A stretch of DNA of 64,000 bases from Phycisphaerales bacterium (GTDB lineage: Bacteria; Planctomycetota; Phycisphaerae; Phycisphaerales; UBA1924): positions 1 through 64,000 of the forward strand of contig JAFIFZ010000060.1 in assembly GCA_020831775.1 (NCBI GenBank). Direction: 5' to 3'. Positions 22,816 through 26,312 of the stretch are shown here, in pieces (position 1 is the stretch's first letter; every line of letters begins with the position of its first letter). Position numbers and translations under genes: made by a program. The notes beneath the pieces are model-generated. The model saw nothing but the letters and a program-made list of their open reading frames with translations, was not told where the DNA came from and searched no databases.

Positions 22816-22876
22816 GCCCGCTCTGAGCCCGCCACGGAGCCGGGCCGGCGGCCCGTCCTGTTGGTGGGCAGGCAGG

Positions 22877-22882
22877 TACACT
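22877..22882 (+). promoter_or_regulatory. -10 element, leaderless start
   Basis: TACACT ends 8 bases before ATG 22891. Confidence 0.45.
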
Positions 22883-22890
22883 CCGGCCCG

Positions 22891-24639
22891 ATGTCGCACC
22901 GGCTCTCCAGAACAGTCTGGCAGTACTCGCTGCTCGCGATGGTGTTCGCGGGGCTCGGCCTGTTCCTGATCTACCCGATTCTGCTCACCGTCGAGAGCGC
23001 TTTCGCCTCCGATCCGACACGCGGCCTCCGCTGGACCGATCTTGGCGCGACCTTCACACTCGAACACATCGGCCTGGTCTTCGCCGATCCGAAGCTCGTC
23101 GAGGGCCTGAAGAACGCCTTGTACATGGCCGTGGGCACCACGGTGCTCTCGATCGCGCTGGCGTTGCCCTTGGCGGTGCTCGCGGCCCAGTACAGGTTCC
23201 CGGGCAAGGGGATCTTCTCGGCGTTGATCCTCGTGCCGTTGATCCTGCCCCCGTTCGTCGGGGCGCTGGGGTTCAAGGCGCTCTTCGGGCGTCAGGGCTC
23301 GTTCAACGCGGCGTTCGGGACCGAGCTCGACCTCCTCGCCGACGGGCGCCTGCTCGGCGTCATCATCGTGCAGGCCCTGCACCTGTACCCGATCATCTAC
23401 CTCAACGCGACGGCGGCCCTGGCCAACCTCGACCCCGCGCTCGACGAGGCGGCCGAGAACCTCGGCGCCGGCTGGTGGCGTCGGTTCTTCGGGATCACCA
23501 TGCCGCTGATCCGGCCGGGGCTGTTTGCGGGCGGGACGATCGTCTTCATCTGGTCGTTCACCGAGCTGGGCACGCCCCTGATGTTCGAGTACTACGCCGT
23601 CACGCCGGTGCAGATCTTCAGAGGCCTGCGCGAGGTCGAGACCTCGGCGCAGCCCTACGCGCTGACGGTGGTGCTGCTCTTCTTCGCCGTGGGGTTCTAC
23701 ATCGTCGGGCGCGTGCTCTTCGGGGGGCGCGCCCACGCGATGTACGCCAAGGCGTCGCGGGCCTCGGCCGAGGTTCGCCTCCGCGGGCCGGCGGCGTGGG
23801 CCGCCACCGGCGCGTTTACCTTCGTCATCGGCCTGGCCCTGCTCCCGCACATCGGCGTGATCCTCACATCCCTCGCCGCACCGGGGCAGTGGTACCGAAG
23901 CGCGGTGCCGACCGAGTTCACCTTCGTGCACTTCGATCAGGCGCTGGGTCACGGCGACAGCTTCAACGCCATCATGAACAGCCTGAAGCTCTCGGCCGCG
24001 GCCATGGTGCTCGCCATCTTCATCGGGCTGATCGTGGGCTACCTGATCGTGCGGACAAAGGTGCGCGGGCGCAATGTGCTCGACACGCTCTGCATGCTCC
24101 CCCTCGCGGTGCCCGGGCTGGTGATGGCTTTCGGCTATGTCGCGATGACGCTCCGCTGGCCCTTCGGGCGGGGCGATCCGCTCGAGGGCGCTTTCTCGGT
24201 CGTCGCGGCCGACCCGAACCCGTTCCCCCTGCTGATCATCGCCTACACGGTGCGCCGCCTGCCTTACATCGTGCGCTCAACGGTCGCGGGGCTGCAGCAG
24301 ACCTCGGGCGAACTCGAAGACGCGGCGGTCAACCTCGGCGCCAGCCGCACGCTGGCGATCCGAAAGATCGTCGTCCCGCTGATCATGGCGAACCTGATCG
24401 CGGGCGGGCTGCTGGTGTTCAGCTTCAGCATGCTGGAGGTCTCCGACTCGCTGATCCTCGCCCAGCAGGCGCAGCACTACCCGATCACCAAGGCGATCTA
24501 CGCCTTCACCGGGCGCCTCGGCGACGGGCCCTATATCGCAAGCGCGATGGGCGTCTGGGGCATGGCGCTCTTGACCGTCACGCTCGTGGGCGCGTCGGTG
24601 CTCCTGGGCAAGAAGCTCGGATCGATTTTCAGGGTGTAG
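22891..24639 (+). CDS. ABC transporter permease, two fused MetI domains (iron/FbpB-ThiP type)
   Basis: 582 residues with about twelve membrane helices in two tandem permease domains. Each has the EAA loop that docks the ATPase: LDEAAENLGAGWWRRFFGIT near residue 185 and LEDAAVNLGASRTLAIRKIV near 475. Fused double permeases of this length are typical of Fe(III), thiamine or phosphonate importers. Neither the binding protein nor the ATPase is nearby, so the substrate cannot be assigned. Last permease half ends close to the convergent FKBP gene. Confidence 0.88.
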   Translation: MSHRLSRTVWQYSLLAMVFAGLGLFLIYPILLTVESAFASDPTRGLRWTDLGATFTLEHIGLVFADPKLVEGLKNALYMAVGTTVLSIALALPLAVLAAQYRFPGKGIFSALILVPLILPPFVGALGFKALFGRQGSFNAAFGTELDLLADGRLLGVIIVQALHLYPIIYLNATAALANLDPALDEAAENLGAGWWRRFFGITMPLIRPGLFAGGTIVFIWSFTELGTPLMFEYYAVTPVQIFRGLREVETSAQPYALTVVLLFFAVGFYIVGRVLFGGRAHAMYAKASRASAEVRLRGPAAWAATGAFTFVIGLALLPHIGVILTSLAAPGQWYRSAVPTEFTFVHFDQALGHGDSFNAIMNSLKLSAAAMVLAIFIGLIVGYLIVRTKVRGRNVLDTLCMLPLAVPGLVMAFGYVAMTLRWPFGRGDPLEGAFSVVAADPNPFPLLIIAYTVRRLPYIVRSTVAGLQQTSGELEDAAVNLGASRTLAIRKIVVPLIMANLIAGGLLVFSFSMLEVSDSLILAQQAQHYPITKAIYAFTGRLGDGPYIASAMGVWGMALLTVTLVGASVLLGKKLGSIFRV

Positions 24640-24643
24640 GCGA

Positions 24644-25270
24644 TCAGCGAGGGACGGCGGTCGGGTCGCGCAGCACCTCAACGAGTTCGATCGTGAAGAT
24701 CAGGTCGGCCCTCGGCGGGATGCCGGCGCCGGGTTCGCTCTCGTCCGGCTTGCCGCCCTCGCCGTAGGCGACCTCCCACGGGACCTGCAAGCGCCGGATC
24801 TCGCCGACGCGCATCCCAGGGACGCCGATCTGCCATCCGCGGATGAGCCCGGTGATGGGCGAGCGGAGGCGTTGCTGGCTCTGGGCGGTGCTGTAGAAGA
24901 CCCTGCCCGCCCGGTCGTGCTCGGCGTCGTTGGGGAAGACGCCCAGAACCTCGGCGACGATCGTGTCCGGCAGGGAAGCGGGCTGCCCGTCGCCCTCGCG
25001 CAGCACCTCGATCACGACGCCGTCCATTGCCGCCCACCGACGCTGCACGCGAAGTCGCTCGCCGAACGGCCCCGTGCCGGATCGATCGCTCGGGCGCGCG
25101 TCCGCAGTGCCTTGGGGCATGATCGTGGCGCTGGGGGGCTTGCCTGCGCCGTGCTGGTCAGCCGGCGCGGCGGGCGATTCGCTTGGGGTTGTCTGGCATC
25201 CGCCAGCGAAAGCGGCGAGCAGCAAGGTCATTCCGATGACCGGCCCGATCCTACATCTACAGTTGCACAT
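24644..25270 (-). CDS. FKBP-type peptidyl-prolyl isomerase lipoprotein
   Basis: 208 residues. The N-terminus (MCNCRCRIGPVIGMTLLLAA) is a lipoprotein signal: Arg residues, a hydrophobic core, and AGGC with the lipidated Cys near residue 24. The C-terminal half carries the FKBP pattern GLIRGWQIGVPGMRVGEIRRLQVP, then AYGEGG, and IPPRADLIFTIELVEV. Starting at ATG 25270 keeps the basic n-region of the signal; ATG 25231 would lose it. The start codon overlaps that of pdxA on the other strand (CATG, 25268-25271). Predicted envelope folding helper. Confidence 0.85.
   Translation of the reverse strand: MCNCRCRIGPVIGMTLLLAAFAGGCQTTPSESPAAPADQHGAGKPPSATIMPQGTADARPSDRSGTGPFGERLRVQRRWAAMDGVVIEVLREGDGQPASLPDTIVAEVLGVFPNDAEHDRAGRVFYSTAQSQQRLRSPITGLIRGWQIGVPGMRVGEIRRLQVPWEVAYGEGGKPDESEPGAGIPPRADLIFTIELVEVLRDPTAVPR
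25258..25263 (+). promoter_or_regulatory. -10 element of pdxA inside the FKBP gene
   Basis: TACAGT ends 5 bases before ATG 25269 and lies within the first codons of the divergent FKBP gene. Confidence 0.5.
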
Positions 25271-26312
25271 GGCCGTAGAGCATACACCGAACGCCCTCCC
25301 CGTTGTGGCGGTCTCCTTGGGCGACCCGGGCGGGATCGGGCCGGAGGTGCTCGTCAGAGCACTGGCGGAGCCCAATATCCGAAAAGCGGCCAGGTTCCGC
25401 GTCTTCGGAGCCGCCAGAGCGATGGAGCGGGCCGCCGACCGCTGCGGCATTGAGCCGGACTGGTGGCGCGTCGACCGAAATTCCGACCTCCGCTCGACCA
25501 CCACCTCACACCCGGTCGTCGTCATCGACAGCGGGGGGGAGGGTCCCTTTGAGCACCGCGCGTGCAAGCGGGGGGGCGAGCTCTCCTTCCGCTTCGTCGA
25601 AGACGCCATCGCCGAAGCCAAACGCTCCGACGACGACCCCCTCAGGGCCGACGCGATTTGCACCGGTCCGATCAGCAAGCACGCGTGGTCGCTCGCCGGG
25701 CGAGGCAAGTACCCCGGGCACACAGAGCTGCTCGCGACGCGCTTCGGCGCCAAACGCGTCGGCATGTTCTTCGAGAGCCCGAAGCTCCGCGTCATCCTCG
25801 CAACCGCACACATCCCGCTGATGGAGCTGCGCAACGCCCTGACGATCGGCAGGGTCTTCGACGCGATCGACCTTGGCTACGAGGCCTGCCGAAGGTTCGG
25901 CATCGAGAACCCGCGCATCGCCGTCTGCGGGCTCAACCCCCACGCGGGCGAGGAGGGCCTGCTCGGCGACGAGGAGACAAGGCTCATCGAGCCTGCGATC
26001 AAGGTTGCCCAAGACCACGGCATCCAGGCCCGGGGCCCCTTCCCGGGCGACACGGTCTTCGGGCGCGCTGTGCGGGGCGAGTTCGACCTCGTCGTTGCGA
26101 TGTACCACGACCAGGGCCTGATCCCCGTCAAGCTGCTCGGCTGGGAACACGCGGTGAATGTCACCGTCGGCCTGCCGGTCATCCGCACCAGCCCGGACCA
26201 CGGCACCGCCTTCGACATCGCCGAGAAGGGCAAGGCCGACCCCGGGAGCATGATCGCGGCCCTGCGTCTGGCGGCCAAAGCCGCACGCTCGCCCCACCCC
26301 GCGGGCGCTTGA
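25269..26312 (+). CDS. pdxA: 4-hydroxythreonine-4-phosphate dehydrogenase
   Basis: 347 residues, normal length. NAD-dependent oxidation of 4-phosphohydroxy-threonine in the DXP-dependent pyridoxal phosphate pathway. Signatures: SLGDPGGIGPEV near the N-terminus; metal-binding histidines in YPGHTELLA, in MYHDQGLIPVKLLGW and in TSPDHGTAFDIA. The start codon shares its bases with that of the FKBP gene on the opposite strand. No other pdx gene is in the window. Confidence 0.96.
   Translation: MAVEHTPNALPVVAVSLGDPGGIGPEVLVRALAEPNIRKAARFRVFGAARAMERAADRCGIEPDWWRVDRNSDLRSTTTSHPVVVIDSGGEGPFEHRACKRGGELSFRFVEDAIAEAKRSDDDPLRADAICTGPISKHAWSLAGRGKYPGHTELLATRFGAKRVGMFFESPKLRVILATAHIPLMELRNALTIGRVFDAIDLGYEACRRFGIENPRIAVCGLNPHAGEEGLLGDEETRLIEPAIKVAQDHGIQARGPFPGDTVFGRAVRGEFDLVVAMYHDQGLIPVKLLGWEHAVNVTVGLPVIRTSPDHGTAFDIAEKGKADPGSMIAALRLAAKAARSPHPAGA
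25279..25284 (-). promoter_or_regulatory. -10 element of FKBP gene inside pdxA
   Basis: Minus-strand TATGCT is 8 bases before ATG 25270 and lies within codons 4-6 of pdxA. Confidence 0.5.

Follow-up and report, generated by a model that had tools for sequence, protein, structure and literature searches.

Divergent pdxA and FKBP lipoprotein genes with overlapping start codons and putative leaderless promoters in a Phycisphaerales genome

The analysed window, a 64,000-nucleotide stretch of a Phycisphaerales genome, contains two divergent genes, pdxA and a gene for an FKBP-type lipoprotein, whose start codons meet in a single CATG (Table 1). The coding sequences on opposite strands overlap by 2 bp at their 5' ends, and this overlap is kept in the three compared genomes of the genus. 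The arrangement is real, locally conserved and unusually compact. Judged from sequence, it most likely represents two leaderless genes with overlapping promoters, a new combination of ordinary parts; that such genes were compacted down to a 2-bp start-codon overlap would probably suffice as an explanation of the whole locus. The initial annotation had already described the two ATGs as overlapping in one CATG, and the coordinates match this description exactly. It had also located each -10 box within the opposite gene, which agrees with the positions of the putative boxes TACAGT, in FKBP codons, and TATGCT, in pdxA codons.

Table 1. Features of the pdxA/FKBP locus (positions in the window)
Feature	Position	Strand	Remarks
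Start-codon overlap CATG	25268-25271	both	2 bp common to two divergent ATGs
pdxA, 4-hydroxythreonine-4-phosphate dehydrogenase, 347 aa	25269..26312	+	ATG 25269-25271
FKBP-type peptidyl-prolyl isomerase lipoprotein, 208 aa	24644..25270	-	ATG 25270-25268
TACAGT, putative pdxA -10 box	25258-25263	+	5 nt before ATG; within FKBP codons 3-5
TATGCT, putative FKBP -10 box	25284-25279	-	8 nt before ATG; within pdxA codons 4-6
71-bp invariant block	25246-25316		spans the two boxes and, for each gene, the start and the initial transcribed region
Permease gene upstream of pdxA	22861-24639	+	convergent to FKBP gene

Gene identities and start codons

The product of pdxA matches the PdxA family TIGR00557 with 345.5 bits (cut-off 290) and PF04166 with 317 bits, and its closest named relatives are mostly from Phycisphaerales and Phycisphaerae MAGs of the Planctomycetota. 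The lipoprotein matches PF00254 (FKBP_C) with 56.5 bits (cut-off 21). Its gene is squeezed at both ends, as 4 nt separate its stop codon from that of the convergent permease gene (both stops within 24637-24646) and the 5' end overlaps pdxA. Folding of the mRNA 5' ends gave no signal for either gene (z 0.77 and -0.26). In PdxA, the conserved motif VAVSLGDPGG starts 12 residues after the ATG at 25269. An in-frame ATG further upstream, at 25236, was rejected as the pdxA start, the codon being AAG in both congeners.

Read from 25270, the FKBP protein carries a predicted lipoprotein signal peptide of 24 residues, MCNCRCRIGPVIGMTLLLAAFAGG, which has two Arg ahead of its hydrophobic core and precedes the lipobox Cys. 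The reading frame and the lipobox are retained in the congeners at 88% identity. A simple gene caller placed the start at 25026, an artefact of the variable linker of FKBP. A spacer list of 82 gene pairs, in which the shortest spacer is 14 nt, therefore lacks the pdxA/FKBP pair at its true spacing.

The initial annotation had itself raised the possibility that the FKBP protein starts at the internal ATG 25231. The gene would then have a short leader, the two genes would be 37 nt apart and only pdxA would be leaderless. This ATG is kept in both congeners, and a TAGGAT upstream of it (25249-25244, minus strand) could act as its -10. However, TAGGAT is the nearest TANNNT and lies 16 nt away, off the peak observed in this genome. 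Moreover, the protein would begin with MTLLLAAFAGGC, and its lipobox Cys would be preceded by 11 residues that include neither Arg nor Lys, whereas in most relatives the divergent FKBP lipoprotein has about 17-30 residues ahead of the Cys, basic ones among them. The stretch 25232-25270 has an uninterrupted reading frame, in phase with the gene, in the congeners. We consider the internal start unlikely.

Leaderless-type boxes and their conservation

Composition statistics were obtained from about 770 kb of the 3.55-Mb genome, with 539 called genes. In this sample, 13.5% of near-start ATGs have a TANNNT hexamer 5-9 nt upstream, compared with about 0.2% of internal ATGs. The most frequent gap is 6 nt, and a Shine-Dalgarno peak coexists with the TANNNT peak. 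A genome-wide TANNNT peak before starts has been used as the criterion for calling genes leaderless (PMC3160421), and the boxes of pdxA and FKBP, at gaps of 5 and 8 nt, both lie in the enriched range. TACAGT scores near the median of the leaderless-type boxes and TATGCT exceeds about a quarter of them. No Shine-Dalgarno motif was found before either start. A box and a Shine-Dalgarno motif occur together in 1 of 532 genes, under a start-choosing rule that scores each signal. The 95 aligned genes with a leaderless-type box show no -35 signature, and for this reason the lack of any match in a sigma-70 promoter scan of the locus is expected. Leaderless-type boxes precede 98 of the 532 called genes in the sample, roughly a fifth. 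Planctomycetes have been listed as a phylum poor in Shine-Dalgarno genes, in which the nucleotide bias upstream of genes suggests leaderless mRNA and/or a role of ribosomal protein S1 (PMC5397173). The signature described here adds sequence evidence for common leaderless transcription in Phycisphaerales, on which we found sparse literature.

Relatives allow the two genes to be considered separately. Outside the genus, 104 pdxA loci were compared, the majority belonging to its family and the others to its order. Of these, 84 have a TANNNT at a gap of 5-9 nt before an in-frame start (control gaps: 2, 2 and 6), and pdxA is therefore very probably leaderless across the order. The case for a leaderless FKBP gene would rest on its box, the conservation of this box, and the divergent FKBP genes of eight relatives that have their own TANNNT at a gap of 5-8 nt (L084, L101, L104, L105, L106, L107, L109 and L110). 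As the gap of 8 nt in the window falls within the peak and off its mode of 6, the FKBP transcript may start 1-2 nt upstream of the ATG. The proposal that both genes are leaderless thus appears sound as far as sequence can tell, each gene having a leaderless-type box at the right distance, with boxes and CATG conserved in the genus.

The genus is represented by three genomes, that of the window and two congeners (G001 and G002). The CATG and both -10 boxes, whose conservation the initial annotation had left to be checked in relatives, are identical in all three. In the alignment of the two genes, no invariant run is longer than the 71-bp block around CATG and boxes; the genomes themselves are 91-95% identical. 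When variable sites were shuffled within gene and codon position, the probability was 0.00045 for invariance of this block, 0.061 for a run of this length anywhere in the pair and 0.037 for invariance of the 27-nt core alone; with only three genomes in the genus, these values rest on few substitutions. As the initial annotation had noted, each -10 has to fit the codons of the opposite gene, and some of the codons that hold its bases are uncommon: where a box base falls on a synonymous or partly synonymous position, the codon is His CAT, Cys TGT or Arg AGA. In this genome, CAT accounts for 14% of His codons and TGT for 7% of Cys codons, and AGR makes up 9% of the codons for Arg. The joint frequency of CAT, TGT and AGA is 0.0009 relative to all codons and 0.005 relative to early codons, an argument formed post hoc. 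Invariance and uncommon codons in the three genomes are supportive of functional boxes, not decisive. Outside both boxes, pdxA codon 3 (25275-25277) is GTA, which accounts for about 1% of Val codons and is fixed in the three genomes.

Promoter geometry, origin and regulation

In the proposed mechanism, RNA polymerase would read a TANNNT -10 without an evident -35 on either strand. The plus-strand complex would open around 25258-25271 and pdxA mRNA would start at or next to A25269; the minus-strand complex would open around 25284-25268 and FKBP mRNA would start at, or 1-2 nt before, A25270. Both mRNAs would begin at or almost at the AUG and be translated as leaderless messages. The bases of each box would be held within the codons of the opposite gene, partly by means of codons uncommon in the genome. 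The boxes are 15 bp apart, and the predicted start sites pass each other by about 2 bp. Each polymerase would thus cover the start of the other gene and, on departing, traverse the other promoter and transcribe through its -10. With the promoters directed towards each other over the overlapping start, one polymerase at a time could be accommodated, and simultaneous occupancy of both looks impossible. Such exclusive occupancy follows from the size of the polymerase footprint.

About 18 of the loci sampled from relatives also have a divergent FKBP gene upstream of pdxA. At those loci that allow both starts to be assigned, the two genes are mostly 40-180 nt apart, and at one locus the distance exceeds 500 nt; among the sampled relatives, a spacer of -2 occurs only in the genus of the window. 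In some genera, pdxA is divergent to a tandem array of two or three FKBP-like genes or domains (L084, L104-L107). The simplest reading is that an existing divergent pair was compacted, and promoters that need only TANNNT would have made such compaction easy. Other relatives have a different organization: at five loci (L067, L070, L073, L074 and L081), pdxA follows the permease gene on the same strand after a few dozen nt, with no box and no FKBP gene between them. These loci, together with a sole terminator-like match between permease and pdxA that is near shuffle expectation, could indicate that pdxA mRNA in the window arises mainly by readthrough from the permease gene and that the proximal box is minor. 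However, 630 nt of antisense FKBP gene intervene in the window, and pdxA keeps its box here at gap 5, as it has one in the 84 loci counted above. The initial annotation had named pdxA transcripts from far upstream as evidence against its reading; the order-wide proximal box speaks against them, and for readthrough a slim chance is left.

Compaction of two leaderless genes, as preferred here, appears to be specific to this locus. Only 2 of 396 called ATG starts have an opposite-strand box at the equivalent place. Of the CATGs in about 770 kb, 384 have at least 100 open codons in both directions, and this one alone among them has both boxes. The pattern TANNNT-N4-8-CATG-N4-8-ANNNTA occurs three times in the whole genome (G000) and 0-10 times per genome in 30 relatives, overall with no excess over the reversed control. 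At 22 pattern loci that were inspected, coding in both directions is clear only in the window and its congener and marginal at one further locus (L191). A recurring genomic device was rejected, since across the genome the double motif is no more frequent than expected by chance; this frequency points to a locus-specific compaction, and the lack of enrichment gives no sign of selection on the overlap itself.

These counts also bear on the idea that the overlap is a regulatory device, in which mutual exclusion of polymerases would produce reciprocal expression of PdxA and the FKBP lipoprotein. The geometry argues against double occupancy, the genus has conserved the block, and strongly activated bidirectional promoters of E. 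coli can repress their partner (PMC12825309). However, at the E. coli bidirectional promoters examined in that study, basal activity did not reach a level at which competition would matter, and a regulatory role should therefore not be assumed. Measurable competition between the polymerases, which the initial annotation had taken as necessary, goes beyond what the sequence shows. In addition, the two products have no known functional link, relatives hold the pair with ordinary spacers, and the double motif is not recurrent. We regard regulation by the overlap as very improbable. Equally doubtful is its strongest form, namely that the face-to-face double leaderless promoter works as a minimal reciprocal switch, independent of any factor, for a B6 biosynthesis enzyme and an envelope foldase, with the overlap itself under selection.

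Comparison with known systems

A search of the open-licence literature brought up no description of divergent leaderless genes whose start codons overlap. The separate parts of the arrangement resemble known systems. As in the TA-led leaderless genes of Actinobacteria and Deinococcus-Thermus (PMC3160421), a TANNNT stands about 10-12 bp upstream of the pdxA and FKBP starts; weak middle positions of the box in high-GC genomes and coexistence with Shine-Dalgarno genes are further common traits. Terms for Planctomycetes gave no match in the text of that study. What sets the locus apart from the TA-led genes is the divergent orientation of its two leaderless-type genes and the overlap of their start codons.

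The bidirectional promoters of E. coli (PMC12825309) are similar in that start sites on opposite strands lie inside one polymerase footprint and occupancy is exclusive. They have one symmetric -10, however, which their start sites flank or fall inside, and the two sites are commonly separated by 18, 10 or 23 bp. The pdxA/FKBP locus has two distinct -10 boxes on either side of start sites that are predicted to cross, and each polymerase would traverse the other promoter; the locus is thus not a symmetric bidirectional promoter. It may offer a minimal natural test case for polymerase competition without a common -10.

Divergent overlapping gene pairs, a strongly under-represented class, likewise have overlapping 5' ends on opposite strands (PMC2174442, PMC2716372). 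A survey of 58 prokaryotes listed 331 divergent overlaps, 274 of them of at least 5 nt (PMC2174442). The initial annotation was therefore wrong to call the arrangement the tightest possible one for divergent genes. The surveys, however, cover coding overlaps only, whereas leaderless-type promoters would explain here why an upstream region is dispensable. If the promoter is TANNNT only and there is no leader, the locus would illustrate the degree of compression open to opposite genes, with zero intergenic DNA and the promoter bases written into the codons of the opposite gene.
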